Shown piece by piece: positions 12,805-63,595 of a stretch of 64,000 nt of DNA. The position numbers and the translations under genes were made by a program. Numbering within the stretch: position 1 is the stretch's first letter; every line of letters begins with the position of its first letter. Source of the stretch: Mesostigma viride (lineage: Eukaryota; Streptophyta; Mesostigmatophyceae; Mesostigmatales; Mesostigmataceae); assembly GCA_009746045.1 (NCBI GenBank), contig RPFO01000229.1, forward strand, positions 120,001 through 184,000, written 5' to 3'. The notes below the pieces were generated by a model. That model searched no databases. It was not told the origin of the DNA and worked only from the letters and a program-made list of their open reading frames with translations.

Positions 12805-14187
12805 CGCTGCACATTAAAATTAAATTAATTTAAATTATAGCATGACTCCGTTGGGAGATCATGTAGCACGTATTCCCTTGCCGGATGGATGGAGGTGGGC
12901 GAAGCCGCGAAACCGATCTAAGCTAACTAAGCTAATATCTAGAAAACCCTAACTACTCTAATCAACAAAGCGCCCCTTCCTTTTAGGGGGAGGGCGCTTG
13001 CCCACAGGGGCCGGCGTGTGAGCCTGGACAATCGTCTTCCATGCACTCTTCTTGTTCTGCATAGCAGTCCAAGCAAGAGAGAGGGAGTGAATGGCCGAAT
13101 GCGGTGTTCAAACGAAGCTAGCTGGGACCACTAGGTCGGCCAGCAACTGCTGTGGATAGGTCATGGCAGCCCGTTTACCCATCTTTCTAGGAATGTCCTT
13201 ATTGGGGCCAGCAGGCCAGGTCAGGATATGCCGCCCAGGTTGGCCAAGCCGCTGGGGGCCGGCCAGACCGAGGTCGGTGTCTACGACTCTACGTACCTGA
13301 CTGGTGCGAGCAAGATGTCCTACGAATGCTATCCTACGCTGCCTAATCTCGTCCGAAATGCGAGGCATACCCTGATACAAAGACCCTAAAGACCTATGTG
13401 TGGAAAACCCTACGTTCAGGGCCTGTCGGAGCATCCTGGTAACCGTGCCATTCAGCCGTGTGGCCAGCGTGTCCGTGAGCGTACGTCCATGCCTCGGCAC
13501 CATAGGTACGTGAGCACCGTGAGGACCAGCTAGGACCTTGAAGAGCTTTCGCTTGCGGTGCTCGCCCAGGTCCTTCGAGCGCCAGTAGGTTTTGAGCGAA
13601 CGAGTGCCTAGCCCAAGCCAGGCCGATGCGAATGTCCACATCGTCAGCGGTGTCGGGGAGCATGCATGCTCCCCAGCAGTTTTAAGCGATCACGGAACGG
13701 GACCTCCGTCCCGTCTAGCAGCCGCGGCAGCGGCGGGCGACTGGTAGCCCCAATCACCATCGCCTCGGTTTTGACACTAATCTCCAACACCACCGCCCGT
13801 GCCTCCAAGCCCAGACAGTCCAGCCAGGTCTAAATGTGCTCGGGGCGCTCGATGATGGTGGTATCATCCGCATAAATCAGGTCAGACAGGCGGTAGCCAG
13901 GGCCGCCGCCGCCATACTCGTAGTCGTTAAGGATGTCCAAGCCCATGCACCGGGCTCGAACCCCTTAAGAGCAGTAAAGCGTGCACGTGCCTGCCGCGCA
14001 TGACGTGATCCACGACAATAATGAACAGGTATGGGGACAGGACACTTGTAACCTTCGGCCACACCCCGTGGTGAAGGGGCCGGAATGGTGGGGTGGTGCC
14101 CTCCGCAGTCCGCACTACTGCCTGTGAGCCGAGGTCATACTGCAGCCGGCGAATGGCAGCAATAAACGCTGGAGGCACGCAGCGCAT
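12805..14187 (-). mobile_element. LINE fragment with reverse transcriptase remnant
   Basis: Read on the minus strand it encodes a decayed LINE reverse transcriptase. A palm segment (LSPYLFIIVVDHVMRG) is followed by YADDTT, whose YADD codons lie at 13863-13874. A C-terminal region with LYQGMPRISDEIRQRRIAFV follows, then a basic tail ending KRKGRFVD at about 12966. Frame changes and an in-frame stop (EHI-stop-TW) make it a pseudogene. The 3' end has a CTCCCAACGGAG stem-loop near 12850 and an AT-rich tail at 12810-12838. The 5' part is missing and abuts another element at 14188. Confidence 0.8.
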
Positions 14188-14470
14188 AATTAATTATTAA
14201 ACACGTGCTCCCCAAGGGGGACCCCTTGGGGAGTCACTGAGCACCGAAATGCTTTTAATCCCTGTGTGTGCACAATGAGGAGAAAGGGCAGAGACCCCCA
14301 GTCTTCTTCATTCATGCCTAGCTAAGGCATGCCACAGCTGCATTCGGGCACGCTAGCTAAACGGACACGCCAACGATCCGGCAATCTGTGGGTGCAATAA
14401 GACCCATGTGAGCATGGCATAATATTGAAGGAGCGTGGGCAAGTAAACTGATCGAAGCCAGGACGTGGCA
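14188..14470 (-). mobile_element. 3' UTR fragment of an ORF1-only element
   Basis: Its reverse complement matches the 3' UTR of the element at 16660-18685 (CTTGCCCACGCT, GGGTCTTATTGCACCCACAG-like blocks, ATTAAAAGCA, then the stem-loop and a TTAATTAATT tail at 14188). The stem-loop is expanded by about 13 bases here. The copy is strongly 5'-truncated. Confidence 0.7.
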
Positions 14471-14505
14471 CTGATGGCTGTACAAGGACTACGCAGCGCA
14501 TAGCT

Positions 14506-16659
14506 ACCGCCTACCTACAATGCCCACACCCCGTTCCCGGGGGAAATGCCCCCCCGCGGGCCAACGAGCTGGTCCACTACTGCCGCCTATACGGCATTGA
14601 TGGCTCAGTGTTCAAGAGCACCGGCGCTACTTTGAGGGCCCTGGAAGATTGCGCCGAAATAGTCCAGTTCTTAGCACAGGAACGCAAGCTCCTTGAACCG
14701 GCCCGGTGCATGGGCCCATCCCCGACGAGAACCTGGAGAGGTTCCGTCGCCCGGCCAGTGGACAACCATCGCCTCGCTATCCTGTGCAGCGCTTCTTCCA
14801 GCTAATAAGTGAAGACGACCTCACCGCTAAGCTCCGCATGCAACCCAGCGGCAGCCTGCGCAGCCGGCCGGGCTCAGGGCTGCCACATCGGCTCCCTCCA
14901 TCTGCAAGCTAGATGACATCCGACCAGTGCTGGCCGAGGAGCACGCGACCTGGCCGTTGGCCGAGAAGCTGACCTAGCGCTGAACACCACGCTCAACACA
15001 GTGGAGGCCCAGGTCTCCAATGGGGAAACCGGCAAGGTCGTCCACAAGCTCCAACCTCAGTTCACGGCGCTGCAGACCGCAGCGCAGGCATCTGAGTGAG
15101 GCGCATGCTGCACTTGTCTCAGTCACCTAAATCAGGTGGAGGGCAACTGCGGCCTGCTCGTAAATCAGGTGGAGGGCAACTGCTGGCTAGAAGCCATCAC
15201 CGCCTAAACCGATGTCCTGGCCGCCCAGGTCCCGGCGGCCCGGCCGGCGAATGGCGATTGCAGCGCAGGTCTAGACGGCCTCCATTGCAGCCCAGCCCAC
15301 CCGGCCGGCCGGCAGATGACAGCCTCTCGGGCCGCACTCCTACGCGGACCTGCTGCGGTCAGCGACCGCCTCGACCACTGACGCCATCGCTACAATTTAA
15401 CTCCAGGAGCTAGCTAAATTGAAGACCTTCGTCAGGCAAAACGACGGGAGGCCGCACCGACCGCGCTCGCCGCGAGTGCCGAGTGGTGCTGCATCGTTTC
15501 CCCCAGAAGCCAGGTGAGACGTTAACCACCCTTGCCGACGAGCTCAAGGACCAGCTTCTTATATACCCTCACGGCCTGGTAGGTGAGGTGGAACGTACTG
15601 CGTGGGTGCCACCGCCCTCCCCACTCACGGGACAAGGCGGCTCCGGCCCCACCTAGCTGTCCTGCTCACCTTCCCTTCCGTCCCCGGAGGACAAGCAGCG
15701 GTTAATTCCTTTCTCGTCGCAAGAGGTTGCACGACCTCACCTGGACGCTGGACGACGACCTGACCCCCGCCTCAGCATGGCAGCAGCTCGACGCGATCGA
15801 CCTGTGGCCGGAATACCTCCGCCACAAGCAGGACCGGCCCCCAGAAGCCCAAGGTGTACTGGAGGGGCCGCGGCCGGGGACCTGATGATCAACCACAAGA
15901 TGTCGACGCCCCCTGCGGGCTAGAATAGCCCTAGCTTGTAATCATTGGTAGTCATAGCCGCCATGGCAGCCATGCCTAGAATGTTTGCCTAGCCTTGCCA
16001 CCACACAGGTAGTCACGTGCACCGCTAACGCACGGTACACAACCAGCCATAGCCTTAGCTTTAGCCATTGTACGTACAGCCACCAGCCATGCTACGTCCA
16101 TCGCAAGCGGTTGCACGACCTCACCTGGACGCTGGATGACGACCTGACCCCGGCCGCTCAGCAGCAGCAGCGACGCGACCTGTGGCCTGAATACCTCCGC
16201 CACAAGCAGGCCCCCCAGAAGCCCATGCAAGGTGTACGTACTGGAGGGGTGGGCACCTGATGATCAACCACAAGATGTAGACGCCCCCAGCGGGCTAGAA
16301 TAGCCAGGCTAGCTAGCTAGCTTGTCAATCATTGGTAGTCACTGCCGCCATGGCAGCCATGCCTAGAATGTTTGCCGAGCCGTGCCACCATACCTAGTAG
16401 TCACGTGCACAACCAGTGACTGGCCGTAGCCTTAGCTTATAGCCCTTGTACAGCCATGCTACGTCAGGACTGGCTATGATCAGTTTACTTGCCCACGCTC
16501 CTTGTTATGATATGCTCACACGGGTCTTCTTGCACCCACAGACCTTGCATGTCGGATCGTCTACAGTATTATATCCGGTTGCTGCATGCTGTGGCACTGA
16601 TGCCTCTACTGAGCTGGCACGAAGGAGAAAGGGGGTCTCAGCCCTTTCTTCCTGTTGTG
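14506..16659 (+). mobile_element. Decayed ORF1-only retroelement, split by a younger copy
   Basis: This stretch parallels the element at 16660-18685 from its ORF1 coiled-coil part (about 14900) to the ORF1 end (RLHDLTWTLDDDL-like at 15720-15780), with many frameshifts. Part of the ORF1 3' end and 3' UTR is present twice (about 15700-15990 and 16090-16400). Its 3' UTR stops at TTCCTGTTGTG (16649-16659) and resumes at 18686 with the same 11 bases, continuing to a stem-loop and tail at 18697-18765. It was therefore the target of the next element. Confidence 0.75.
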
Positions 16660-18685
16660 GAAGGAACCGCTAGCTGCTTGTCCTCAGGGGAGGGGAAGGT
16701 GAGCAGGACCATTAAAATGGCTGACGGCGGTATGGCTGACGGCGGAGCTCAGATCTTTTGCGTCTGAGCCCCAAATTCGGTCAGACCACTTGCATTCGAT
16801 GCGCTTTATTCAGACGTACACGCCAGTATAATCGGTTACGGCTGAAACGCAGTATTGACAAAGTTATCACGTGACAAGCAGCTATGACGACCCCAAAAGC
16901 AAAACGGGGTCTGGAAAAGGAGCTTACCGGCTCCCAGCCCAACCCGCTCGCCATCGTTCTTGCCCAGCCGCCTGGGCACGCCAACCCACCGCCAGCAAAC
17001 CCATCGCCAAGCGCCTCGCCTGAATCCAAGAAACCATGCCACGACCGCCACAAATGGAGCCTATTCTTGCCCGGCGACAGCAGGTTCTCCCTCCTCGAGT
17101 GGCAGAACCTGTCGCCACAGGAAGTCGTCGAGGTCCTCCAGTTCCTCACACAGGAACGGAAGCTCTTCGTGCCGCAGAAGGGGGGGCGGCTATCGACTAC
17201 CGCAACACGTCCTGGCTCTACACTTATGAAGAACCACGCCAACGCCTGTTTATCTTGACCAGCTACTACCAGCGCAGCCTCGCCGACATCCACAGAGCGC
17301 TCAAAGCCCCCGCCCCCGCGCACAGCCGCCAGCCCCTTCGGCTCCCTCCCTCTGCAAGGATGACATCCGCGCAGTGCTGGAGGAGCACGTGACCTGGCCG
17401 CTGGCCGAGAAGCTGACATCGCTGAACACGACGCTCAACACGGTGGAGGCCCGGGTCTCCAATGTGGAAACCAAGGTCGTCCACAAGCTCCAGCCCCAGT
17501 TCACGACGCTGCACACCGCGGCGCAAGCTTCGGAAACGCATGCTGCACTTGTCTCTCGCCTTAACCAGGTGGAGGGCAAGTGCGGCGTGCTCATGAAGAA
17601 GCTTGAGGCCATCACCGCCCACACCGAGGCCCTGGCCACACAGGTCCCCAAGATAGCGGAGCAGACGGCCACCATCATGCCTCCCAGCCACCCCGGCAGG
17701 ATGCTGGTGACCTCCCGCCGCTCTCCTACGCGGACCTGCTGCGGTCAGCGACCGCCTCCACCACCGACGCCATCGCCACGAAGCTCCAGGAGCTGGAGGA
17801 CCACCGCCAGGCCCAGCAACGGGAGGTCACCGACCGCGCTCGCCGCGAGTGCCGCGTGGTGCTACGTCGCTTCCCCCAGAAGCCAGGTGAGACGTCAACC
17901 TCTCTTGCTGACGAGCTCAAGAACCAGCTTCTTACCCTCATGGGCCTGGTAGGTGAGGTAGAACTGCGTGGGTGCCACCGCCTTCCCCACTCATGGGACA
18001 AGGCGGCTCCCCCACCAGTCCTGCTCACCTTCCCCTCCCCTGAGGATAAGCAGCGGTTCCTCTCTCGTCGCAAGAGGTTGCACGACCTCACCTGGACGCT
18101 GGATGACGACCTGACCCCCGCTCAGCAACAGCAGCCGGACGCGACCTGTGGCCGGAATACCGGCCTCCGCCATAAGCAGGACCCCCAGAAGCCCAAGGTG
18201 TACTGGAGGGGCGGGGACCTGATGATCAACCACAAGATGTGGACGCCCCCAGCGGGCTAGAATAGCAATAGCCCTAGCAATTGTAACCATTGGAGTCACT
18301 GCCGCTAAGGCAGCCATGCCTAGAATGTTCGCCTAGCTGTGCCAACATACCTAGTCACGTGCCGCCAACGCACGGTACACAACCAGCCATAGCCTTAGCC
18401 TAGTCCTAGCACAGCCATGCTACGCCCGTGCTATGGTCAGATTACTTGCCCACGCTATACTTGTTATGCCCCGCTTACATGGGTCTTATTGCACCCACAG
18501 TTTGCCGGATCGTTAGCCTGTCCTTTTAGCTAGCCGCGCCCGATTGCAGCTGTGGCATGCCTTTGGCATGAAGGAGACTGGGGGTCTCTGCCCTTTCTCC
18601 TGTAGTGCACACACAGGGATTAAAAGCACTTCAGTGCTCCGTGACTCCCCAACGGGAGCACGTGTTTAATTAATTAATTAATTAA
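16660..18685 (+). mobile_element. ORF1-only non-LTR element inserted in an older relative
   Basis: It is bounded by the direct repeat TTCCTGTTGTG at 16649-16659 and 18686-18696, an 11-bp target duplication typical of target-primed reverse transcription. It has a 5' leader shared with the other ORF1 elements (ATGGCTGACGGCGGAGCTCA at about 16736), one ORF1-type coding region, a 3' UTR, the stem-loop GACTCCCC-AA-CGGGAGCACG (about 18642-18661) and a TTAATTAA tail. No reverse transcriptase or endonuclease lies inside. The first 50 bases are an antisense copy of its own 18015-18059. Confidence 0.85.
16884..18260 (+). pseudogene. L1-type ORF1 protein, frameshifted
   Basis: From an ATG at 16884 the frame encodes a Pro/Ser-rich N-terminus. 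A heptad-like coiled-coil region follows (about 17395-17660, with NTTLNTVEARVSNVETK), then an RRM-like segment (CRVVLRRFPQKPGET) and a C-terminal domain (VLLTF ... FLSRRKRLHDLTWTLDDDLT ... KVYWRGGDLMINHKMW). This order matches LINE-1 ORF1p, an RNA-binding trimeric chaperone. Three or more frameshifts break it, one at the G run 17178-17184. No zinc knuckle is seen. Confidence 0.8.
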
Positions 18686-18696
18686 TTCCTGTTGTG

Positions 18697-18983: not shown

Positions 18984-19006
18984 ATCAAGGAGACAATGGT
19001 CAGGGC

Positions 19007-19339
19007 ATGGGCCTTAACGGTGAGATCGAGCTGGCCGCCCACCGCCTTCCCCGCGCGCGGGGTAAGGCAGGGCCGCCCCCGCTCCTTCTCACCTTTAAGA
19101 CCCCGGCGGACAAGATTTCTTTTCTCAGACGCCGCAAGCGGCTCGAGAAGACTCTCTTCACCCTTGATGACGACTTGACCCTGGCGCAGCAACAACGGCG
19201 ACGGGAGCTATGGCCGACCTACCTCCAGCTCCGGCAGACCAAGGCGGGGCAGCCGGTGTACTGGAAGGGGGCGGCCATCTACGTCGGCCACAAGCCCTGG
19301 CAGGCGACCCCCCCCCCCCCGCGGCCCCAGCGACTCTAG
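19007..19339 (+). pseudogene. ORF1p C-terminal fragment
   Basis: It encodes the end of an L1-type ORF1 protein: the PPLLLTF strand, then FLRRRKRLEKTLFTLDDDLT, AQQQRRRELWPTYLQLRQ and VYWKGAAIYVGHKPW, with a stop at 19337-19339. The N-terminal two thirds are missing through 5' truncation of the element. Confidence 0.8.
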
Positions 19340-19746
19340 ACGCCCCAGCTTAGGGGAATACAGCAGTAGTAGTGCAGAATAGATAGACCGTGGCCATGTG
19401 TACATGTACGCCTCCTAGAGGCACTATCCCAGCTAAGCCCCGCGCTTTATTTTAATCATGTACATGTGTGCCTATGATGTGCCACACTCCAGACGATGCC
19501 TAGCCTTATTTAGTAATGTTGTGCCCATGCAGGGAGTAACTCTCTGCTGAGATGCCATGCCCTAGCTTATTGTATAGCCATGCTGATCTTCCCCCCCATG
19601 ACAGGCTCCCCCTTCGCTGGGCATAGCTTGAAGATCATGGGGATGCAAGTGCCCTGGTGCACCTAGAGCAAGGGTCCTTTACATTCCCACCCTTGCAGGA
19701 AGTAGCTTAGAATGTATGATAGGCCATATGCCCCTTCTCTGGGCTA

Positions 19747-20420
19747 TTGAATTGAATTGTAACATAACTCCGTTGGGAGTATATGTAGCACATAGCCCTT
19801 AATTGAGAGGGGGCATATGGCCTATCATACATCCTAAGCTACTTCCTGCAAGGGTGGGGATGTAAAGGACCCTTGCTCTAGGTGCACCAGGGCACTTGCA
19901 TCCCCATGATCTTCAAGCTATGCCCAGCGAAGGGGGAGCCTGTCATGGGGGGGAAGATCAGCATAGCTATACAAAAGCTAGGGCATGGCGTCTCAGCAGA
20001 GAGTTACAGCTCCCTGCATGGGCACAACATAACTAAATAAAGCTAGGCATCATCTGGAGTGTGGCTCATCATAGGCACACATGTACATGATTAAATAAAG
20101 CGCATGGCTTAGCTGGGATAGTGCCTCTAGGAGGCGTACATGTACATGGCCACGGTCTATCTATGCTACACTACTACTGCTGTATTCCCCTAAGCTGGGG
20201 CGTCTGGGGTCGCTGGGGCCGCGGGGGTCGCCTGCCAGGGCTTGTGGCCGACGTAGATGGGGCGCCCCCTTCCAGTACACCGGCTGCCCCGCCTTGGTCT
20301 GCCGGAGCTGGAGGTAGGTCGGCCATAGCTCCCGTCGCCGTTGTTGCTGCGCCAAGGTCAAGTCGTCATCAAGGGTGAAGAGAGTCTTCTCGAGCCGCTT
20401 GCGGCGTCTGAGAAAAGAAC
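19747..20420 (-). mobile_element. Nested antisense ORF1 element with 11-bp target duplication
   Basis: It is flanked by TCTCTGGGCTA at 19736-19746 and 20421-20431. On the minus strand it runs from a 5' truncation inside ORF1 (TTCTTTTCTCAGACGCCGCA-like) to the stem-loop ACTCCCAACGGAGTTATG and a CAATT-type tail at 19747-19760. Host and insert belong to the same family, so the two bodies form an inverted repeat of roughly 600 bp per arm. Confidence 0.9.
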
Positions 20421-20490
20421 TCTCTGGGCTATGTGCTACATATACTCCCAACGGAGTTATGTTCCTAATTAATTAATTAATTAATTAATT

Positions 20491-30317: not shown

Positions 30318-30620
30318 AAAGCCGCGAGCCACGAGGTAGCCATGGCTGACAGCGGAGATCATAACTTTCTCGTTTGGGCACCGAAATCGGCTGTGAACAT
30401 CACAATCGCTTCGTCTTTCTAAGACGCACACGCTGATATAATTTTCCGAAGCTATTGCGCAATATGTGATGAGCAAACGCTCCTCGACACAGGCAGCCTG
30501 GCGGCTGCGCTAAGCCCTGAAAATACGTCTGCAGCTCCGGCTGCAGCCTCGCCCTCAGGTCCGGAAGGCAGTGGTGACACTAGTCGGGCACTGGTGGTCG
30601 CCCAGAGCCCTCATTTGATG
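30318..30620 (+). mobile_element. 5' leader fragment of an ORF1-only element
   Basis: It matches 48000-48290: GCCACGAGGTAGCCATGGCT, then CATCACAATCGCTTCGTCTT and the first ORF1 codons (about 30470-30610), with frame breaks. It lies inside the TA transposon. Confidence 0.75.
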
Positions 30621-31084: not shown

Positions 31085-31245
31085 GGCCTGCAGTCTGATT
31101 CGGGCCCAACGGCAGCACCGCCATAGAAGATAAGGGCCGGCAGTCTGATTCGGGCCCAACGGCAGCACCGCCATAGAAGATAAGGGCCCGCAGTCTGATG
31201 CGGGCCCCACGGCACCACCGCCATAGCAGAACTCGAAGGGGTCGT
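31085..31245. repeat. 53-bp tandem repeat
   Basis: Three copies of a unit with core GCAGTCTGATTCGGGCCCAA and CGCCATAGAAGATAAGGGCC. Confidence 0.8.
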
Positions 31246-35054: not shown

Positions 35055-35159
35055 TTTTCCGAAAAAAAAACTGGAGGTAGAAGAATGGAATGGGTTGTTT
35101 TGTTCACGAAATGAACGCTCGTCGTCCTGTGTGTGTATGTTTTTGGAGTTTTTAATGCA

Positions 35160-35538
35160 AGTTATGCAACACGAAGCTTGGAATGCTCGGGCACTGCCAA
35201 ATGGCGAGAGTGTGCGTGAACGACGAGACACCTTGGCATTAGGATAATGTGGCACATATACTGCTTGGCAGCCGTCAACTATGGCTGGCCAGACTTTGCG
35301 TAAGTTAAACTAACTTACTGATCCTGGACGGACTAACCTATCAGTTACAACCTGATCTAGTCAGTCCTAACATGACAACTACAGTCCCGGTACTGAGGTA
35401 CCGGCTCATCACATACTGAGTACAGCCACGTGTCCATGCCACGACTACTCTAGTCCAGCACCGTCCCAGTACCCAATTGGGCGCCGGCGGTGCTGGCACG
35501 TGTCCACTTAGGCTACAGGCGGGAGACTTAGACTAACT
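35160..35538 (-). repeat. 5' LTR of the Copia-like element
   Basis: 379 bp. It reads AGTTATGCAACACGAAGC at its plus-strand left edge and ...GACTTAGACTAACT at the right edge. Confidence 0.92.
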
Positions 35539-47437: not shown

Positions 47438-47925
47438 CGATTAAAATTAAATTAAATTAAATTATAACATGCCTCCGTTGGGAGATCATGTAGCACATAT
47501 TCCGTGATGGATGGGTGGGGTGGGAGGAGCCGCGTAGTCGAACTATCCTAACTCTAAGCTATCTAGAAAGTCCTAACTACCCTACTCATCAAAACGCCTC
47601 CTCCGCTTGGGGGGAGGTGGTTTGCCCACAGGGTCGGGCGTGTGAGCCTTGACAATCCTCTTCCACCGCGTCTTGTTCTGCATGGCGGTCCAAAGAAGGG
47701 AGAGAGAGTGGATGCGGTATTCAAACTGGGCTGGGACCAGTAGGTCATCCAGCAACATCTGTACGTAGTTCGTGACATGTTTCCCTACCTTTTTGGCAAT
47801 GCCCTTGGGGCCAGGCCAGGTCAGAATGTGCCGCCCTGGCTGGCCAAGCCGCTGGGGGCCGGCCAGACCAAGCGGTGTCGACCTGGCTGGATTGACCCCG
47901 ATGGATTGATGGATGGGTGCAAACA
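47438..47925 (-). mobile_element. LINE 3' end, second copy
   Basis: The minus strand encodes an intact C-terminal stretch (LLDDLLVPAQFEYRIHSLSL, WTAMQNKTRWKRIVKAHTPD, ending PPPPKRRRRFDE-stop at 47582) matching the 12966-13250 LINE. It is followed by a CTCCCAACGGAGGCATG stem-loop and a TTTAAT tail at 47440-47466. 5'-truncated. Confidence 0.8.
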
Positions 47926-47989: not shown

Positions 47990-49352
47990 GCGAAATTCCG
48001 GCCACGAGGTAGCCATGGCTGTCGGAGCTCATAACTTTCACGTTTGAGCACCGAATTTAGCCGTGAATATCACAATCGCTTCGTCTTTCTAAGACGCACA
48101 TGCTGATATAATTTTCCGACGCTATTAAGCAATATATGGCGAACAAACGCGCCTCGACGCAACGCAGCCTGGCGGCTGCGCTCGGCAATGAAAATACGTC
48201 TGCAGCTCAGGCTGCAGCTTCGCCATCAGGTCCGGCAGGCGGCGATGACACTAGTCGTGCACTGGTGGTCGTCCAGCAACCTCCCGGGCTTAACGCCTCG
48301 CCATCTGCATCGCCTGACCCCAAGCGCACCCGCTCAGCCGACAAAACAGGAGGGTCACGCCCCCCAGAACCGAGCTTTCGGCCCCGGCCTTTCAAGGTCG
48401 AAGATTACGACTGGGCCAACCCGTCTCCGACCGATGCTATGCGCTGCATCTTCTTCGGGGATTACGCTTCGCTTTACGACCTGTGCCTACATCTTCACGA
48501 CCTCAATCGCCTCCTCGGCCCGGACGGCGGCCGCTGGGCCAACATCTACCAGCTGTCCGGCTGCCCCCGCCCGGCCCATCTCCAGCACGCCATCCTCAAC
48601 TCCCTTCTCCAGCGCTCTGACGGCGAGATCTGGGCTCCATCCCTTTCCGCCCCCACGCTCCGCTCCATCCTCACGGAAGCCTTTCAGCAGCACGTGACCC
48701 CCCTTGCTGCCGACATAGCAGCAATCGGCGGCACGCTGACTGCTGAACTTCCTCACATTTCCACCGCCGCCGCATCCACCTCCACTGCCATTTCCGCCTC
48801 CACTGCCGACATCAAAGCCCAGCTCCTCGACCTCGACCAACGCCTTCAAGCGACCGCCAACGCCCTTGAGAGCTTGCATGACACCGCCGGCCTCACCGCC
48901 CAGGCGGTGAAGGACATCGCCGCCCAGCCGGCGCCTGCTGGCCCAGCCGGCGATGCTCCCTCCACCAGGGCGGACTTGCTTAAGCAGCACACCACCTCCA
49001 CCACCTCCACCATCTCGGCACAACTCAAGCAACAAGTCCTCGACCTTCGCGAGGAAGCCGACATCGCCGGGCGCAGCCACAATGTCATCGTCAAGCACTT
49101 CGACCAGCCGGCAGGTGAGACCTCCACGAGCCTTCTTGAGGCATTTAAGCGCGACATTTTTGCCCCCATGCTACTCACTGGTGAGCTGGACATGTCGGCT
49201 GTCCGCCTCCCCCGCGCGCGGGGGAAGGCTGGCCCGGCACCCGTGCTCCTCACCTTTAGGTACATGGCGGACAAGCTGTCGTTCCTTAAATGCCGCAAGA
49301 AGCTCTCGGAGACTTGCTTCACGCTGGACGACGACTTGACCCTGGCCCAGCA
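47990..49352 (+). mobile_element. ORF1-only element lacking its 3' end
   Basis: It shares leader and ORF1 with the minus-strand element 49611-51570, almost base for base, from CCGGCCACGAGGTAGCCATG to CTTGACCCTGGCCCAGCAA (49352), where similarity stops. The two copies face each other as an inverted repeat of about 1.35 kb per arm. Confidence 0.85.
48136..49352 (+). CDS. L1-type ORF1 protein, C-terminally truncated
   Basis: It starts MANKRASTQRSLAAALGNEN. The N-terminal half is Ala/Ser/Pro-rich with a conserved block (FKVEDYDWANPSPTDAMRCI). A coiled-coil stretch follows (DIKAQLLDLDQRLQATANAL), then an RRM-like part (NVIVKHFDQPAGETS) and part of the C-terminal domain (PVLLTF, FLKCRKKLSETCFTLDDDLT). 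The frame runs on to 49437 through unrelated sequence. Nucleic-acid chaperone by analogy with LINE-1 ORF1p. Confidence 0.82.
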
Positions 49353-49610
49353 ACCACAACGGTCTGAAAGTGCCAAAAAACAGCCTTATAACTCCTGTAC
49401 GATGCAAATATTGTCGAAACATGCTAGATCTTGGTAGGTAGCATGTTCAGGACACCAGTAGAAGGATTGCAACTTTCCGGACGTACCGGACCTCAGCTGA
49501 CCTATTTTTGGCATGTCTATTTTTAGCAGTTTTCCAGATTTTAATATAAACAAATACATTCTAATATGCAAATAAAGAGTTCTTGACCTGGCTGTTTGCA
49601 AGTAAGTTGA
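49353..49610. other. Spacer between two inverted ORF1 elements
   Basis: Unrelated AT-rich sequence. Its right edge, CAAGTAAGTTGA (49599-49610), is the target duplication of the next element. Confidence 0.6.
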
Positions 49611-51570
49611 TTAATTAATTAATTAATTATCAACATCACTCCGTTGGGAGTCAATGTAGCACATATCCCTGAGAAGGGGCATATGGCTTTAAATACATCC
49701 TAGGCTACTTCATGCAAGGGTGGGAATGTAAGCAACACTTGCTCTAGGTGCCGCAAGGGCACCGGCACCACCATGCTGTCTCAGGTTCAACCCAGCTAAG
49801 GGGATCCTGGCACGGGGGAGGAAGATCATCATGGCTATGCAAGGGCTAGGGCATGGCTTCTCGACAGAGAGCATCTCTCTGCATGGCATAGCATGGCTAA
49901 GTTCTTAATGCAACATCCATGGGGGTCCCATTATAGACAAAGCATGGCTAAATGTTGAAGGCATCATCCATGGGGGCCATTATGGGCGCACATGCGCGTG
50001 GGCCACATGCTAGGCTAAGCCTTACTAATCTACACTACTGGTATATATATTCCTAGTCTGAGGTGGCAGGAGGGGGCTGCCAGGGCTTGTGGTCAACGTG
50101 GATGACCGCCCCCCTCCAGTATACCGGCTTCCCCCTTGCGCTCTGCCGGAGCTGAAGGTAGGCCGGCCATAGCTCGCGTCGCCGTTGTTGCTGGGCCAGG
50201 GTCAAGTCGTCGTCCAGCGTGAAGCGAGTCTCCGAGAGCTTCTTGCGGCATTTAAGGAACGCCAGCTTGTCCGCCATGTACTTAAAGGTGAGGAGCACGG
50301 GGGCCGGGCCAGCCTTCCCCCGCGCGCGGGGGAGGCGGACAGCCGACATGTCCAGCTCACCAGTGAGTAACATGGGGGCAAGAATGGCGCGCTTAAATGC
50401 CTCAAGAAGGCTCGTGGAGGTCTCACCTGCCTGCTGGTCGAAGTGCTTGACGATGACATTGTGGCTGCGCCGGGCGATGTCGGCTTCCTCGCGAAGGTCG
50501 AGGGCTTGTTGCTTGAGTGGTGCCGAGATGGTGGAGGTGGTGGAGGTGGTGTGCTGCTTAAGCAAGTCCGCCCAGGTGGAGGGAGCATCGCCGGCCGAGC
50601 CAGCAGGCGCCGGCTGGGCGGCGATGTCCTTCACCGCCTGGGCGGTGAGGCCGGCGGTGTCATGCAAGCTCTCAAGGGCGTTGGCGGTGGCTTGAAGGCG
50701 TTGGTCGAGGTCGAGGAGCTGGGCTTTGATGTCGGCAGTGGAGGCGGAAATGGCCGTGGAGGTGGAGGCGGCGGCGGTGGAAATGTGAGGAAGTTCAGCA
50801 GTCAGCGTGCCGCCGATTGCTGCTATGTCGGCAGCAAGGGGGGTCACGTGCTGCTGAAAGGCTTCCGTGAGGATGGAGCGGAGGGTGGGGACGGAAAGGG
50901 GTGGAGCCCAGATCTCGCCGTCAGAGCGCTGGAGAAGGGAGTTGAGGATGGCGTGCTGGAGATGGGGGCGGACGCAGCCGGACAGCCCGTAGATGTTGGC
51001 CCAGCGGCTGCCGTCCGGGGCGAGGAGGCGATTGATGGAGTGGAAATGGAGGCACAGGTCGTAAAGCGAAGCGTAATCCCCGAAGAAGATGCAGCGCAGA
51101 GCATCGGTCGGAGAAATGGTGGCCCAGTCGTAATCTGCGACCTTGAAAGGCCGGGGCCGAAAGCTCGGTTCTGGGCGTGAAGACCCTCCTGTGTCGTCGG
51201 CTGGGCGGGTGCGCTTGGGGTCAGGCGATGCAGATGGCGAGGCGTTAAGCCCGGGGGGTTGCTGGACGACCACCAGTGCACGACTAGTGTCATCGCCGCC
51301 TGCCGGACCTGAAGGCGAAGCTGCAGCCTGAGCTGCAGAATTTTCATTGCCGAGCGCAGCCGCCAGGCTGCGTTGCGTCGAGGCGCGTTTGTGCGCCATA
51401 TATTGCGTTTTAGATTCGGAAAATTATATCAGCATGTGCGTCTTAGAAAGACGAAGCGATAGTGATATTCACGGCTAAATTCGGTGCTCAAACGTGAAAG
51501 TTATGAGCTCCGACAGCCATGGCTACCTCGTGGCCGGAATTTTATATCATGGTTGAAGTAAGTCATGGTT
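49611..51570 (-). mobile_element. Complete ORF1-only non-LTR element with 12-bp target duplication
   Basis: It is flanked by CAAGTAAGTTGA at 49599-49610 and 51571-51582. On the minus strand it has a 5' leader of about 170 bp, one intact ORF1, a 440-bp 3' UTR, the stem-loop GACTCCCAACGGAGTGATG (about 49634-49652) and a TTAATTAA tail. Total 1960 bp with no endonuclease or reverse transcriptase. It looks like a whole mobile unit, comparable to mammalian half-L1 (HAL1) elements. Confidence 0.9.
50053..51399 (-). CDS. Intact L1-type ORF1 protein
   Basis: 448 residues, uninterrupted. It starts MAHKRASTQRSLAAALGNEN, with a conserved block FKVADYDWATISPTDALRCI and a coiled coil near the middle (DIKAQLLDLDQRLQATANAL). 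An RRM-like region (NVIVKHFDQQAGETSTSLLE) follows, then a C-terminal domain (PVLLTFKYMADKLAFLKCRK, FTLDDDLTLAQQQRRRELWP, VYWRGAVIHVDHKPW). The domain order and the final VYWRG-type motif match LINE-1 ORF1p. No CCHC knuckle. The start is set by alignment with the 48136 copy. Confidence 0.88.
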   Translation of the reverse strand: MAHKRASTQRSLAAALGNENSAAQAAASPSGPAGGDDTSRALVVVQQPPGLNASPSASPDPKRTRPADDTGGSSRPEPSFRPRPFKVADYDWATISPTDALRCIFFGDYASLYDLCLHFHSINRLLAPDGSRWANIYGLSGCVRPHLQHAILNSLLQRSDGEIWAPPLSVPTLRSILTEAFQQHVTPLAADIAAIGGTLTAELPHISTAAASTSTAISASTADIKAQLLDLDQRLQATANALESLHDTAGLTAQAVKDIAAQPAPAGSAGDAPSTWADLLKQHTTSTTSTISAPLKQQALDLREEADIARRSHNVIVKHFDQQAGETSTSLLEAFKRAILAPMLLTGELDMSAVRLPRARGKAGPAPVLLTFKYMADKLAFLKCRKKLSETRFTLDDDLTLAQQQRRRELWPAYLQLRQSARGKPVYWRGAVIHVDHKPWQPPPATSD

Positions 51571-51582
51571 CAAGTAAGTTGA

Positions 51583-51645
51583 TACTCATGACTAATGACT
51601 GTACACAAGATCTGATCGTCATCCAACCGCATTTGGTAACAAAAT
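51583..51645. other. Short spacer before the satellite
   Basis: Nothing recognised. Confidence 0.4.
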
Positions 51646-52150
51646 GCCACCAAATGCTAGCAAAAATGTGCGTTTTTTGTATTTTTCATCACATTTCATT
51701 GCAGTTTCCATACAAGCTGTGCTCGGTTGAGGCTGGAAACTTGTAGGCATCTTAAACATCATTATTCTAGACATCCCACAAAAATTCAGGTCCATCATAG
51801 GATGTTATTGATGTCAGTTTGCTCACAAATGTTACAAAAAATGCACGCTTTTCGTATTTTTCATCACATTCCATGGCAGTTTCCATACAAGATGTGCTCA
51901 GTTCAGGCTGGAAACTTGCATGCATCTTTGCCATCATTATTTTAGACATTCCACAAAAATTCAGAACCATCAGAGGATATTTGATGTCAGGTTGCTCACA
52001 AATGTTACCAAAAATGCACGTTTTTCGTATTTTTCATCACATTTCATTGCAGTTTCCGTACAAGATGTGCTCTGTTGAGGCTGGAAACTTGCATGCATCT
52101 TAGCCATCATGATTTTAGACATTCCACAAAAATTCAGGCCCATCATGTTC
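51646..52150 (+). repeat. Satellite with ~175-bp period, second locus
   Basis: Three units with AAAATGCACGTTTTTCGTAT and GGCTGGAAACTTGCATGCAT blocks at about 51662, 51838 and 52011. They resemble the 24390-24779 units (GGCTGCAAACATGCATGCC; AAAATCACGTTTTTTACATA) in the same order. Confidence 0.8.
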
Positions 52151-52507
52151 TATTTGGTAGAGTTATCAGTGCCATACCTGCCAGTTTCCATTACAATTTC
52201 TTACCCATGGATGCGAAACTGCCAGTGTGGAATATCAAGGAGACAATCTGGTCAACTCAAATAAGATGACTCACTAAAACATGGAAACCATTCACGAGTG
52301 ATATAAGACAACCTCCAGGAGACATACATAAAAGTTCATTGATATAGACACAGCTGACAATATGCACATGTGGCCATGTGGATGCTCACGCAATCTCTTA
52401 TTATACGGAGGAGATTGCTGAACATAATATTGGCAGCTGTCGCATGCATGGCTAGAAAGGTCATTTTACACGTGCACCCACAGCATGCCAAGTAATGTAG
52501 CTGCAAA
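52151..52507. other. Spacer with one ATCAAGGAGACAA motif
   Basis: ATATCAAGGAGACAATC lies at about 52227. No gene recognised. Confidence 0.4.
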
Positions 52508-52737
52508 TTACTCAACAGGCGGCATGGCGCTGATGCGTTTGCGCGCCCTCATCTCGGTATCGCTAGCAGGTAGTGGCACCTCCCTGCACAATCTCTGCCT
52601 GACCTTGTCAGCCTTCATGCACTGTGTCAACATGGACACCCCCATACCCTTGCCCTTGGCATCACAGCCAAGCTTTCGACGGTGGTTGGTGAAGCTCTTG
52701 GTGTCCTCCTTGCGCATGTGGTGCATGTGCAAGTTAC
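52508..52737 (-). CDS. Unknown coding-like exon beside the microsatellite
   Basis: The minus strand reads NLHMHHMRKEDTKSFTNHRR, KLGCDAKGKGMGVSMLTQCM, KADKVRQRLCREVPLPASDT, ending ISAMPPVE-stop. The composition is protein-like and basic. The upstream side is the GTGA array, so its true start is unknown. No family recognised. Confidence 0.35.
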
Positions 52738-55672
52738 TAAGTGAGTGAGTGAGTGAGTGAGTGAGTGAGTGAGTGAGTGAGTGAGTGAGTGAGTGAGTGA
52801 GTGAGTGAGTGAGTGAGTGAGTGAGTGAGTGAGTGAGTGAGTGAGTGAGTGAGTGAGTGAGTGAGTGAGTGAGTGAGTGAGTGAGTGAGTGAGTGAGTGA
52901 GTGAGTGAGTGAGTGAGTGAGTGAGTGAGTGAGTGAGTGAGTGAGTGAGTGAGTGAGTGAGTGAGTGAGTGAGTGAGTGAGTGAGTGAGTGAGTGAGTGA
53001 GTGAGTGAGTGAGTGAGTGAGTGAGTGAGTGAGTGAGTGAGTGAGTGAGTGAGTGAGTGAGTGAGTGAGTGAGTGAGTGAGTGAGTGAGTGAGTGAGTGA
53101 GTGAGTGAGTGAGTGAGTGAGTGAGTGAGTGAGTGAGTGAGTGAGTGAGTGAGTGAGTGAGTGAGTGAGTGAGTGAGTGAGTGAGTGAGTGAGTGAGTGA
53201 GTGAGTGAGTGAGTGAGTGAGTGAGTGAGTGAGTGAGTGAGTGAGTGAGTGAGTGAGTGAGTGAGTGAGTGAGTGAGTGAGTGAGTGAGTGAGTGAGTGA
53301 GTGAGTGAGTGAGTGAGTGAGTGAGTGAGTGAGTGAGTGAGTGAGTGAGTGAGTGAGCGAGTGAGCGAGTGAGCGAGTGCGTGAGTGAGTGAGTGAGTGA
53401 GTGAGTGAGTGAGTGAGTGAGTGAGTGAGTGAGTGAGTGAGTGAGTGAGTGAGTGAGTGAGTGAGTGAGTGAGTGAGTGAGTGAGTGAGTGAGTGAGTGA
53501 GTGAGTGAGTGAGTGCGTGAGTGCGTGAGTGCGTGAGTGAGTGAGTGAGTGAGTGAGTGAGTGAGTGAGTGAGTGAGTGACTAGTGAGTGAGTGAGTGAG
53601 TGAGTGAGTGAGTGAGTGAGTGAGTGAGTGAGTGAGTGAGTGAGTGAGTGAGTGGGTGGGTGGGTGGGTGGGTGGGTGGGTGGGTGGGTGGGTGGGTGGG
53701 TGGGTACGTGGGTGGGTGGGTGGGTGGGTGGGTGGGTGGGTGGGTGGGTGGGTGGGTGGGTGGGTGGGTGGGTGGGTGGGTGGGTGGGCCGGGTGGGTGG
53801 GTGGGTGGGTGGGTGGGTGGGTGGGTGGGTGGGTGGGTGGGTGGGTGGGTGGGTGGGTGGGTGGGTGGGTGCGTGGGTGCGTGGGTGGGTGGGTGCGTGG
53901 GTGGGTGCGTGGGTGGGTGCGTGGGTGGGTGGGTGCGTGGGTGCGTGGGTGCGTGAGTGCGTGAGTGCGTGAGTGCATGAGTGCATGTGAGTGCGTGAGT
54001 GCGTGAGTGCGTGAGTGCGTGACTGCGTGAGTGCGTGAGTGCGTGAGTGCGTGAGTGCGTGAGTGCGTGAGTGCGTGAGTGCGTGCGTGCGTGAGTGCGT
54101 GCGTGAGTGAGTGAGTGCGTGAGTGAGTGAGTGCGTGAGTGAGTGAGTGAGTGAGTGGGTGGGTGGGTGGGTGGGTGGGTGGGTGGGTGGGTGGGTGGGT
54201 GGGTGGGTGGGTGGGTGGGTGGGTGGGTGGGTGGGTGGGTGGGTGGGTGGGTGGGTGGGTGGGTGGGTGGGTGGGTGGGTGGGTGGGTGGGTGGGTGGGT
54301 GGGTGGGTGGGTGGGTGGGTGGTGGGTGGGTGGGTGGGTGGGTTGGTGCATGGGTGGGTGGGTGGGTGGGTGGGTGGGTGGGTGGGTGGGTGGGTGGGTG
54401 GGTGGGTGGGTGGGTGGGTGGGTGGGTGGGTGGGTGGGTGGGTGGGTGGGTGGGTGGGTGAGTGAGTGAGTGAGTCCACGAGTGAGTGAGTCCACGAGTG
54501 AGTGAGTCCACGAGTGAGTGAGTCCACGAGTGAGTGAGTCCACGAGTGAGTTCACGAGGGAGGGAGGGAGGGAGGGAGGGAGGGAGGGAGGGAGGGAGGG
54601 AGGGAGGGAGGGAGGGAGGGAGGGAGGGAGGAGGGAGGGAGGGAGGGAGGGAGGGAGGGAGGGAGGGAGGGAGGGAGGGAGGGAGGGAGGGAGGGAGGGA
54701 GGGAGGGAGGGAGGGAGGGAGGGAGGGAGGGAGGAGGGAGGGAGGAGGGAGGGAGGGAGGGAGGGAGGGAGGAGGGAGGGAGGGAGGGAGGGAGGGAGGG
54801 AGGGAGGAGGGAGGGAGGGAGGGAGGGAGGGAGGGAGGAGGAGGGAGGGAGGGAGGGAGGGAGGGAGGGAGGGAGGGAGGAGGAGGGAGGGAGGGAGGGA
54901 GGGAGGGAGGGAGGGAGGGAGGGAGGAGGAGGGAGGGAGGGAGGGAGGGAGGGAGGGAGGGAGGGAGGGAGGGAGGGAGGGAGGGAGGAGGGAGGGAGGG
55001 AGGAGGGAGGGAGGGAGGGAGGAGGAGGGAGGGAGGGAGGGAGGGAGGGAGGGAGGGAGGGAGGGAGGAGGAGGGAGGGAGGAGGGAGGGAGGAGGAGGG
55101 AGGGAGGGAGGGAGGGAGGGAGGGAGGGAGGGAGGGAGGGAGGGAGGGAGGGAGGGAGGGAGGGAGGGAGGAGGGAGGGAGGGAGGAGGGAGGGAGGAGG
55201 GAGGGAGGAGGGAGGGAGGGAGGAGGGAGGAGGGAGGGAGGGAGGGAGGGAGGGAGGGAGGGAGGGAGGGAGGGGAGGGAGGGAGGGAGGGAGGAGGGAG
55301 GGAGGAGGGAGGGAGGGAGGGAGGGAGGGAGGGAGGGAGGGAGGAGGGAGGGAGGAGGGAGGGAGGGAGGGAGGAGGAGGGAGGGAGGGAGGGAGGGAGG
55401 GAGGGAGGGAGGGAGGGAGGAGGAGGGAGGAGGGAGGGAGGGAGGGAGGGAGGGAGGAGAGGAGGGAGGGAGGGAGGGAGGGAGGGAGGGAGGGAGGGAG
55501 GGAGGGAGGGAGGGAGGGAGGGAGGAGGAGGGAGGGAGGGAGGGAGGGAGGGAGGAGGAGGGAGGGAGGGAGGAGGGAGGAGGAGGGAGGGAGGGAGGGA
55601 GGGAGGGAGGAGGGAGGGAGGGAGGGAGGGAGGGAGGGAGGGAGGGAGGGAGGGAGGGAGGAGGGAGGGAGT
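52738..55672. repeat. 2.9-kb composite of tetranucleotide arrays
   Basis: In order: (GTGA)n 52739-53650, (GGGT)n 53652-53940, GTGC/GTGA mixed 53940-54150, (GGGT)n 54155-54460, a 16-bp GTGAGTGAGTCCACGA unit 54465-54555, then (GGGA)n with GGA slips to 55672. Adjacent blocks differ by single-base changes. Long frames through it are repeat artefacts. Confidence 0.95.
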
Positions 55673-55827
55673 GGAGCGGTCACTCACAGCAGTTTATTCC
55701 CACCCCAGCAGGGCCCCTCCCTCACATCCGGCTGCAAAATCTGCTTGATGTCGCTTCTCTCTAGAATAAGCCGCACAGCCCTGATGCGAGCAAACGGCTC
55801 GCCATCATACTGTCGCTCACTGATGCT

Positions 55828-56090
55828 TTATTCGCGCTTTCCGTAAGATGAAAACATGACGGAAAAGAGAGACTCGGGGAAAGGGATACGGTGAAATACT
55901 TGTCTGCTACCGGCCGGGGTTTCAACAGCGAAGAAATTCGCACCTGAATGTGCACATACCACTCCGTCACGTCGACAACGGTCTTGCATCGCAACCGTGT
56001 CACAGACGCGGCAGCAAAAATTGCTGGCGGCATTGACATGCTCGCCGCAGTTAACGAACGTGCGGAGGTCCGTTTTAGCCCCTGACGCCA
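55828..56090 (-). CDS. Small Cys-rich protein of unknown function
   Basis: From an ATG at 56090: MASGAKTDLRTFVNCGEHVN, then FCCRVCDTVAMQDRCRRDGV, VCAHSGANFF, stop at 55828. The Cys/His spacing suggests a zinc-binding fold, but no family is assigned. A possible acceptor (TTTTGCAG) lies just upstream at about 56115, so it may be an exon. Confidence 0.35.
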
Positions 56091-56656
56091 TGGCGTCTTT
56101 GATGCCAACAACGCCTGCAAAAGACACGATATCGGGCACAAAAGCACTTAAAAACGAATTACGGGTCTGCGACGCCTGGCCCAGCCTAGAAATTGGATAA
56201 AAAATCGCGCCAGCTCGGTTAAAGCAAACTGAGCCGGTAATGAAAAAAGTGCTTCGGTCAAGGCCTTAAAAACTAAAAAATGCGTCGATTAGTGTCAAAA
56301 ACCAGATGTTAGGGCGACTTTCATCGGGAAATTTTTTTGCTGCAGGTAGGTGGGGTCGAGAGAAAATCGGCGACAAAACAGGCACCCACCTGTGAATGAC
56401 GCCAAAATGCCGAAGGACTCCGCAGAGTTTGTGGCGAAAAAAAATAACGGCAAGTAATATATGACCCTAGGAGCATACACTTAAATTTCCAGCCTCGATA
56501 CTGCCTTTTTATTCGCTCACGATAGCCTGCCAGGCCGCCATGCCTGTCGGTGGAAATTCGGTCACCGTCGTGCACGCACACACCAAAAATCTCATTTCGC
56601 GCCACTTTTCGGGTCCTTCTTACGAGGCTGCATTTTGGCGGGGCTCGGACCGTTGT
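56091..56656. other. Region without a recognised gene
   Basis: AT-rich, no supported feature. Confidence 0.4.
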
Positions 56657-57243
56657 GACAGAGGCGACGCGAGCTATGGCCGACCTACCTTCAGCTCCGG
56701 CAGAGCGCACGGGGGAAGCCGGTATACTGCAGCAGGGGGGCGGTCATCCACGTTGACCACAAGCCCTGGCAGGCCCCCCCTGCCACCTCAGACTAGGGAA
56801 TATATACCAGTAGTGTAGATTAGTCAGGCTTAGCCTTTGCAAGTGGCCCACGCGCATGTGCGCCCATAATGGCCCCCATGGATGATGCCTTCAGAATTTA
56901 GTCACGCCCTGCCTATATTAATGGGACCCCCATGGATGTCGCATTAAGAATTTAGCCATGCTATGCAGTGCAGAGAGATGCTCTCTGTCGAGAAGCCCTG
57001 CCCTAGCCCGGCCTTGTGTAGCCATGATGATCTTCCCCCCCATTACATACTCCCCCTTAGCTGGGCATAGTGTGAAGATCATGAGGGTGCAGGTGCCTTG
57101 GTGCACCTAGAGCAAGTGTTGCTTACATTCCCACCCTTGTAGGAAGTAGCCCAGAATGTATTAAAAGCCATATGCCCCCTCTCAGGGATATGTGCTACAT
57201 GTACTCCCAACGGAGTTATGTTTCTAATTAATTAATTAATTAA
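56657..57243 (+). mobile_element. 5'-truncated ORF1 element
   Basis: It starts within the last ORF1 codons (GCGACGCGAGCTATGGCCGA, as in the 49611-51570 element). The common 3' UTR, the stem-loop GTACTCCCAACGGAGTTATG (57203-57222) and a TTAATTAA tail follow. Typical 5' truncation after incomplete reverse transcription. Confidence 0.85.
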
Positions 57244-57532
57244 TATCGCGTTGTAAGCTTTTTTTAGAACGCGTATAGCACCTTAGGGAAAAAAAAATCA
57301 TGGTCATGTATATACTTTCCTGAAAGCCCATAAATCAAAGTTTTGTTTTAGCTACTCAGACCTACAACATGCTGATTCATTAGAGAGATACACTGGTTTG
57401 AATACAGGGGGGTCTGACCATGACCGCGATTTGTTGACCCTAGGTCACAAGTCATGTGCTTATTCACAAATGGTTCATGGAAAAAATCTGGCTTCTTGCA
57501 CGAGCTATGGGCAACATAAATGGGCAACATAA
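57244..57532. other. Spacer, nothing recognised
   Basis: ATATCGCGTTGTAA at 57243 recalls the palindromes at 62126-62182. Confidence 0.35.
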
Positions 57533-58066
57533 AGAAAGTTGGTGCGAGAGGTCCCCAGTTCGATTCCGGTCGGATTCATTTGCAGATCGCGTTTTCCGCG
57601 TTTTCCGCGGACCGGCACTGAACGCAAATGGTTTTCACCTTTGCGGCGTGCCAAATCAGAATATACGCTTGGCTGATCTCGATAGTACCGGCTACGCCCC
57701 CTTCCCCTCTCAAGAAGGTTCCAGCCGTGTTCAGCCCGTCTCACGTTTCGAGCCCTGAACAAGTCTCGAGTGCAGACACGTGTGTAGTACTCCTACACAC
57801 ACAGATCTCGAATTATTTATCTAGCACCAAATCCGAAAGGCTTGCCATCACTCCCCGGAAAGGAGAACTTTTGCGGATGACTGTAGGTGTAAGTTGGCGA
57901 TGCCCTAGGATCCGGAGACGTCTGTCCTATAGTCAGCGAAAGTTGGTGCGAGAGGTCCCCAGTTCGATTCCGGTCGGATTCATTTGCAGATCGCGTTTTC
58001 CGCGTTTTCCGCGGACCGGCACTGAACGCAAATGGTTTTCACCTTTGCGGCGTGCCAAATCAGAGA
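57533..58066 (+). repeat. Two direct copies of a tRNA-3'-half-like sequence
   Basis: About 130 bp at 57533-57660 recurs at 57938-58066. Each contains GTGCGAGAGGTCCCCAGTTC then GATTCCGGTCGGATTC, which reads like a variable loop, T-arm B box and acceptor end. The T stem pairs poorly, so this is not a working tRNA. Candidate tRNA-derived SINE or old tRNA duplicate. Confidence 0.5.
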
Positions 58067-62205: not shown

Positions 62206-62337
62206 TGTGTAGCTTACATTCCCACCCTTGCAGGAAGTAGCCCAGAATGTATTACAAGCCATATGCCCCTTCTCAGGGATATGTGCTACATGTACTCCCA
62301 ACGGAGTTATGTTCCTAATTTAATTAATTAATTACCA
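62206..62337 (+). mobile_element. Severely 5'-truncated ORF1-element 3' end
   Basis: Only the last about 130 bp of the 3' UTR remain, with stem-loop GTACTCCCAACGGAGTTATG (62294-62313) and TTAATTAA tail. It adjoins a small piece of the same family's 3' UTR (62337-62386). Confidence 0.8.
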
Positions 62338-62386
62338 GTAGTGTAGATTAGTCAGGCTTAGCCTAGCACTATGTGGCCTACGCGCA

Positions 62387-63595
62387 TTGAATTGAATTGA
62401 ATTGAATTGAATTGTAACATAACTCCGTTGCATGGGAGAATACGTAGCACATATCCCAGAGAAGGGGCATATGGCTTTTAATACATTCTAAGCTACTTCC
62501 TGCAAGGGTGGGAATGTAAACAACACTTGCTTTAGGTGCCCCAGGGCACCTGCACCCTCATCATGATCTATCACGCTATGCCCAGCTAAGGGGGAGCATG
62601 TCATGTGGGGGAAGATCATCATAGCTATACAAAAGCTAGAACGTGGCATCTCATCAGAGAGCAGCTCTCTGCATGGGCACAACATAACTAAATAAAACTA
62701 GGGCATCATCTGGAGTGTGGCTCATCATAGGCACACATGTACATGGCTAAATAATGCGCGTGGCTCAGCTGGTATAGTGCCAGTAGGAGGCGTACATGTA
62801 CATGGCCACGGTCTATCTATTCTACACTACTACTGCTGTATTCCCCTAAGCTCAGTGGGGCGTCTGGAGTCGCTGGGGCCGCGGGGGTCGCATGCCAGGG
62901 CTGGTGGCCGACGTAGATGGATGGCCGCCCCCTTCCAGTACACCGGCTGCCCCGCCTTGGTCTGCCGGAGCTGGAGGTAGGTCGGCCATAGCTCCCGTCG
63001 CCGTTGTTGCTGCGCCATGCAGGGTCAAGTCGTCGTCAAGGGTGAAGAGAGTCTTCTCGAGCCGCTTGCGGCGTCGGAGAAAAGAAATTTTGTCCGCCGG
63101 GTGAGAAGGAGCGGGGGCGCCCCTGCCTTACCCCGCGCGCGGGGAAGGCGGTGGGCGACCAGCTCAATCTCACCAGTAAGGCCCATGCGACTAAGAATTT
63201 CTCTCTCAATTGCACGTGCAAGCTTCTCGGAATTCTCACCTTCCTCCATGTCGAAGTTCTTGACAATGACGTTGAGGCTGCGCTTGGCGAGCTCGGCCTC
63301 CTCGCGGAGGTCGAGCGTCTGCTGCTGGAGCTGGGCTGCGACGGCGGAGGTGGTGGAGGTGGCGTGCTGTCCGCCCAGGTCGGGATGGGAGGAGCATCGC
63401 CGGCCAGGCCAGCCGGGGCTGGCTGGGCGGCAATGTCCTTCACCGCCTGGGCGGTGAGGCCTGCGGTGTTTTGCAGGACCTTGATGGCAATTGCATTGTC
63501 CTTAAGACGTTGGTCAATGTCGCGGAGCTGGGCGGTGATGGAGTCGGTGGAGGCGGAGGGGGGGGGGGGTGCCGGAGGCGAGGAGGGCAGTGAAC
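62387..63595 (-). mobile_element. ORF1 element, 5' side interrupted
   Basis: The minus strand ends with a CAATT-type tail (62387-62417) and a stem-loop carrying a CAT insertion (ACTCCGTTGCATGGGAG on plus). ORF1 parts are readable in shifting frames (STDSITAQLRDIDQRLKDNA; RRRELWPTYLQLRQTKAGQP; VYWKGAAI). It stops at 63595, where CATACGG-rich sequence begins. Confidence 0.75.

Follow-up and report, generated by a model that had tools for sequence, protein, structure and literature searches.

The window analyzed in this study, 64 kb of the Mesostigma viride genome, contains retroelements that, judging from their sequence, are complete, inserted, and repeated units encoding an L1-type ORF1p and nothing else. 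We suggest, with a probability of roughly 70%, that these are non-autonomous LINE-like elements whose RNA would be coated by their own ORF1p and copied in trans by the reverse transcriptase (RT) of a separate LINE possessing the same 3' hairpin. The first-pass annotation of this DNA spoke of a protist family; the host is a streptophyte alga.

Structure of the full-length element

The full-length ORF1-only element, el1, occupies positions 49612..51570 on the minus strand (1,959 bp) and is bounded outside both ends by the target-site duplication CAAGTAAGTTGAT, at 49599..49611 on its 3' side and at 51571..51583 on its 5' side. The duplication is an exact 13 bp, and one of 400 random window stretches did equally well at its left end. 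The first-pass annotation had recognized this duplication, giving 12 bp for it and 1960 bp for the element; both lengths are corrected here. The 5' start of el1 agrees within about 12 bp with the starts of copies A and H, three copies with unrelated flanks.

From 5' to 3' on the minus strand, el1 consists of a leader common to el1, A, and H (51400..51545), ORF1 (50053..51399), and a 3' hairpin (49633..49657) formed by 5 bp, a one-base bulge, 5 bp, and a CAAC loop, next to which lies a TTAA-repeat tail. The leader, stem-loop, and AT-rich tail described previously are all found, and ORF1 is open over its 448 codons, as had been claimed. Its 448-aa product is predicted to comprise a helical N-terminal domain (residues about 80-165), a coiled coil, an RRM, and a C-terminal domain (CTD). 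The earlier statement that nothing in el1 resembles an endonuclease or RT also holds: none was detected by Pfam analysis of ORF1 and of four overlapping ORFs (no family at E<=0.01 in the latter) or, for the part from the RT to the C-terminus, by tblastn with seven RT proteins. Approximately two repeats of a 16-bp unit containing part of the target duplication are observed at the 5' junction (51547-51579).

Additional copies in the window

Self-comparison of the window distinguishes two lineages, el1-type (el1, A, C, D, E, F, and H) and el2-type (el2, B2a, B2b, and B3). At least eight other fragments had been reported to have the plan of el1; ten sequences sharing this plan or one of its ends were found, namely A, C, D, E, F, H, B2a, B2b, B3, and a hairpin at 12293.

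Among the el1-type copies, A is represented by a 5' part (47993..49357, plus strand) with the leader and ORF1, 95.5% identical to el1, and a 3' part (56663..57244, plus strand) with the ORF1 end, 3' UTR, hairpin, and tail. We take both parts to be one copy split by a 7.3-kb insert, because the 5' part is homologous to el1 as far as 50184 and the 3' part takes up again from 50183. The insert (49358-56662) has no end repeat of 6 bp or more and no duplication; it contains el1 and a 2.9-kb AGTG tandem array (52740-55673). Copy C (62395..63557, minus strand) retains the 3' half of a frameshifted ORF1, the 3' UTR, a hairpin (at 62438) with a 4-nt insertion, and an AATTC tail. Copies D (19748..20420, minus strand) and E (19004..20490, plus strand) are 5'-truncated and extend from the ORF1 end through an AATTC and a TTAA tail, respectively; D, with its 12-bp duplication, is inserted in E. 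Both resemble the abundant subfamily of the Mesostigma protein P0002 (tblastn identity 98% over 52 aa for D and 96.7% over 120 aa for the C-terminus of E). Copy F (62207..62334, plus strand) is a 3' end with hairpin and tail, and in the region 62207-63557 F and C adjoin another 3' UTR fragment (62333-62387). Finally, copy H (30328..30605, plus strand), limited to the leader and ORF1 start, lies within a likely LTR retrotransposon (24780-35538), whose 379-bp LTRs (24780-25158 and 35160-35538) are 99.5% identical and whose ORF at 26842-28920 weakly resembles an integrase (rve, E 2.1e-5, which falls short of the Pfam cut-off).

The second ORF1-only subfamily is represented by el2 (16660..18685, plus strand), which is inserted in B2b. 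The plan and the 11-bp duplication reported for it previously are present; its ORF1, however, is split by frameshifts into ORFs of 124, 192, and 134 aa. Copy B2a (14882..16059, plus strand) contains ORF1 and the beginning of the 3' UTR, breaks off where el2 has position 18399, and lacks the hairpin. Copy B2b (16101..16659, plus strand) contains the ORF1 end and 3' UTR and continues beyond el2 at 18697-18768 with the hairpin. A reading of 14503-16659 as a single copy (B2) was rejected in favor of these two partial copies. Copy B3 (14189..14490, minus strand) is a 5'-truncated 3' end with a 12-bp duplication at the edge of the RT-encoding remnant RT1. The 3' UTR of el2 and B2b aligns with that of el1 in short stretches only. 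The 5' end of el2 (16662-16709) repeats positions 18018-18061 of the same element as an inverted copy of 48 bp (89.6%), which template switch or twin priming at the 5' junction may have produced. An el2-type hairpin at 12250-12312 (the one at 12293) is preceded by sequence matching neither lineage and possibly belongs to a third client family.

Insertion of one family member into the 3' UTR of another is seen more than once, at 16649-18768 (el2 in B2b) and 19004-20490 (D in E). Other features of the window are identical 127-bp direct repeats (57534-57660 and 57938-58064, spacing 404 bp) and Pumilio-repeat ORFs at 3617-7089, one of which is overlapped at its end by a 98-bp tandem duplication (3975-4212).

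Evidence of insertion as complete units

In all seven window copies that keep both the ORF1 end and the hairpin, the interval between them is free of RT sequence. Its length from stop codon to hairpin is 403 nt in el1, 419 in A, 395 in C, 398 in D, 390 in E, 385 in el2, and 399 in B2b, the stop positions of C, D, and E being the ends of tblastn matches.

Target duplications were looked for in ten copies (el1, A, C, D, E, F, el2, B3, RT1, and RT2). Six have one, five of these being ORF1-type: 13 bp in el1, 11 bp in el2, 12 bp in D and in B3, and 9 bp (exact) or 13 bp (one mismatch) in E, with 12 bp and one mismatch in the RT-encoding remnant RT2. Random window stretches matched these six in at most 5 of 400 cases. 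No convincing duplication was seen for A, C, F, and RT1, the 8 bp of the last lying in the tail and being equaled by 7 of 400 random stretches. Empty sites could be reconstructed in two cases: the flanks of el2 (in B2b) and of D (in E), once joined, align with uninterrupted homologs, and the gap of 11 columns in the el2 alignment has the length of its duplication. An artefact or gene-prediction noise is rejected by the duplications, empty sites, and recurring junctions. Duplications, empty sites, and the seven RT-free copies likewise support the proposal of the first-pass annotation that ORF1-only elements are complete units.

ORF1 protein and selection

The predicted fold of the el1 ORF1 product matches human LINE-1 ORF1p, with an RRM followed by a CTD, the order of L1-like (coiled coil-RRM-CTD) ORF1 proteins, and has an extra N-terminal helical domain, for which Foldseek gave no PDB match at E<=0.001. 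Long helices are predicted, at low confidence, at residues 206-260 and 276-309, and the protein is probably a trimer. The L1 type assigned to ORF1 previously agrees with this fold but is not recognized by Pfam, which finds no family in el1 ORF1 at E<=1; the proposed kinship with L1 ORF1p is one of predicted structure. A sequence search of solved structures with the ORF1 profile yielded only ribosomal L7/L12 (E 0.86 and 1), which was rejected.

All 47 ORF1 relatives among 7,998 candidates scored are Mesostigma gene models (JGI 'Mesvir1' names). The closest is 83% identical to ORF1, whereas P0002, which represents a 90%-identity cluster of 32 member proteins, is 55% identical. The ORF1 profile gave 136 pattern matches in viral_contigs and 102 in genome_contigs, none of them confirmed in either set. 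Five Mesostigma gene models (P0001, P0012, P0019, P0024, and P0039) fuse ORF1 with other Pfam domains, which from their accessions we take to be oxygenase, kinase, AP2, and others. These models are probably annotation joins and possibly exonized copies.

Comparison of el1 with C, D, and E yields dN/dS of 0.43 (209 codons, p 1.3e-5), 0.40 (p 0.013), and 0.44 (p 0.0038), respectively, three values that are not independent because el1 is common to all. For the closest copies, el1 and A, the ratio is 0.94, indistinguishable from 1 as in dead copies, and recent selection on el1 itself is unsupported. In the second lineage, el2 versus B2a gives 0.42 (p 0.017) and 0.74 (p 0.27) and el2 versus B2b gives 0.52 (p 0.13), which weakly supports constraint on ORF1 there. 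The common ORF1-3' UTR junction of the el1-type copies makes it most likely that ORF1 was under constraint at a stage when these elements had already become ORF1-only, though separate origin of each copy from a full LINE could yield equal dN/dS figures.

Constraint on ORF1, together with the fused gene models, would also suit a host gene derived from a LINE ORF1 (compare mammalian L1TD1), with processed copies made by a LINE by chance. We consider this highly improbable: all six el1-type 3' ends have the hairpin of the RT-encoding LINE and a short-repeat tail instead of an mRNA poly(A), copies are nested within each other, and as many as 32 member proteins fall in the one cluster mentioned above.

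RT-encoding LINE remnants and the common 3' hairpin

The window also contains two remnants of an RT-encoding LINE, absent from the first-pass annotation, that are likely to represent the helper. RT1 (12813..14188, minus strand) is broken, has a YADD motif at 13863-13874, and ends with the shared hairpin. RT2 (47442..47890, minus strand) belongs to the same LINE but is truncated on its 5' side; what is left is a 3' end that encodes the C-terminus only and includes the same hairpin. These are the only two places in the window with RT-related sequence at E<=1e-4, and neither is within el1. The seven tblastn queries, of which five are Mesostigma gene models and two are ENA proteins, extend from the RT to the C-terminus and lack the endonuclease.

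The last 59 nt of RT1 match six of six el1-type 3' ends (E 8e-6 to 1e-9), the rest of its 298-nt end being unmatched. RT1 and RT2 are alike along the entire 3' UTR, but their similarity to el1-type ends is confined to the last ~60 nt. This stretch has 30 columns that do not vary among eight ends. All six ends folded, RT1 and RT2 included, gave a hairpin of one kind (4-5 bp, a one-base bulge, 4-5 bp, and a CAAC loop). In el2 and B2b the hairpin is related and its loop identical; el2-type ends do not match those of RT1 or RT2 at E<=0.01 and have only the loop and the hairpin plan in common with them. Therefore, the helper of the el2-type elements is less certain.

In the eight-row hairpin alignment 96.3% of cells pair, compared with 32-45% for slid versions. 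Its covariation score was reached by 4 of 500 shuffles, which is support rather than proof because the shuffles ignore relatedness; two pairs change on both sides, a result equaled by 118 of 500 shuffles. By folding energy alone, three of the ends do little better than shuffled sequences (z -1.26 for RT1, -1.84 for RT2, and -1.95 for E). The hairpin pattern has no match in viral_contigs.

Protein searches produced at least seven relatives of this RT, including the Mesostigma RT-domain protein P0054 (RVT_1, E 8.2e-17). A full-length RT protein (about 648-2060 aa) was not among the 7,986 candidates scored at E<=0.001, nor does the 64-kb window contain a full-length RT LINE. Clade comparisons place RT1 in no single clade: P0054 is matched similarly weakly by R2 (6.5e-6) and L1 ORF2p (8.6e-5), profile A7, whose consensus is short of most RT columns, matches neither of them, and NCBIfam returns a weak group II intron RT only. 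The C-terminal pattern presumably looks more RTE- than L1-like. This ambiguity and the L1-like fold of ORF1p would suit another helper, a LINE of the L1 clade that encodes an ORF1 itself and ends in this hairpin, with RT1 and RT2 being mere clients or relatives. We regard such a helper as unlikely, given that RT1 and RT2 are the sole relatives of this RT in the window and that the limited lists of candidates scored included relatives of it and no full-length protein.

The 3' ends also bear on the possibility that the elements are no more than an ordinary ORF1+ORF2 LINE shortened by internal deletion time after time, every copy being a dead end. There is a precedent, as HAL1 is described as having arisen from L1 several times (PMC5753468). 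Against it, the diverged copies C, D, and E (about 72-81% identical to el1) have one and the same ORF1-to-3' UTR junction as el1, the 3' UTRs of window copies have no RT-related sequence at E<=1e-4 (tblastn with the above queries, which lack the endonuclease), and the 3' UTR of the RT LINE matches theirs only in its last ~60 nt. Judged from this window, recurrent deletion is quite unlikely. A single ancient deletion followed by a long ORF1-only life is compatible with these data and fits the trans-mobilization reading.

Proposed mechanism

We propose that the replicating form consists of the leader, ORF1, a 3' UTR of about 400 nt, the hairpin, and a short-repeat tail. The element RNA would be translated into an L1-type ORF1p, probably a trimer as its fold suggests, which may coat its own RNA. 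The endonuclease and RT would come from the separate LINE left as RT1 and RT2 and would recognize the common 3' hairpin. This helper would then nick target DNA and copy the RNA by target-primed reverse transcription, so that the insertions would be flanked by duplications of about 11-13 bp and would often be 5'-truncated. That the polymerase is borrowed, as suggested by the first-pass annotation, is the best reading of the seven copies without RT and of the hairpin shared with an RT LINE; its supply in trans is what we infer from them. A related arrangement, which we consider unlikely, is a two-part LINE, in which separate ORF1p and endonuclease/RT units with one shared hairpin mobilize each other, the RT unit being without an L1-type ORF1.

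Comparison with known systems

Mammalian HAL1 is non-autonomous and is described as encoding only an L1-type ORF1p (PMC5753468). The el1-type elements likewise have ORF1 and lack ORF2. The 3' end of HAL1 is the L1 poly(A), without a conserved hairpin, whereas el1-type ends carry a conserved hairpin and TTAA or AATTC repeats and no poly(A) end. Further differences are the streptophyte algal host, the extra N-terminal helical domain in ORF1p, and the fact that only the last ~60 nt are common to el1-type elements and the known RT LINE. HAL1 is not the sole close parallel, as had been believed: Drosophila HeT-A, also non-LTR, is reported to encode no RT and likely obtains it from TART or TAHRE (PMC5537684). 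HeT-A joins chromosome ends, whereas the Mesostigma elements have inserted at internal sites and show 9-13-bp duplications.

The eel UnaSINE and UnaL2 form a stringent SINE/LINE pair. In such pairs a 3' tail is common to client and helper, for instance in SINEX-3_CR/L1-1_CR of Chlamydomonas (PMC3747384), and the ORF2p of zebrafish LINEs is reported to bind its cognate 3' stem-loop (PMC4176376). By analogy, the el1-type elements, whose ends share a stem-loop with an RT LINE, may be trans-mobilized by hairpin recognition. The tail sharing is alike, but the Mesostigma client also encodes a constrained protein. Short internally deleted elements (SIDEs) are non-autonomous, LINE-derived, and accompanied by a LINE partner; Persaeus, for example, is described as Zenon with an internal part deleted (PMC6740152). 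The Mesostigma elements differ in keeping the whole ORF1 and in having a 3' UTR that resembles the RT LINE's only at its end. More generally, a domain lost by a retrotransposon may be supplied in trans by another retrotransposon or the host, as noted in PMC3905857.

The available text of two Mesostigma genome papers (PMC6947507 and PMC7027972), one of which reports abundant transposable elements, mentions no ORF1-only family; novelty is judged here against the open-access literature. If the proposed reading is true, these elements would form a lineage of ORF1-only retroelements beyond mammals and flies, with a helper identifiable by its tail. It would also become testable why an RT-borrowing element retains its ORF1p, a question left open by HAL1 with its poly(A) end. 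As Mesostigma is at the base of Streptophyta, these elements would provide a hairpin-sharing system at that position.
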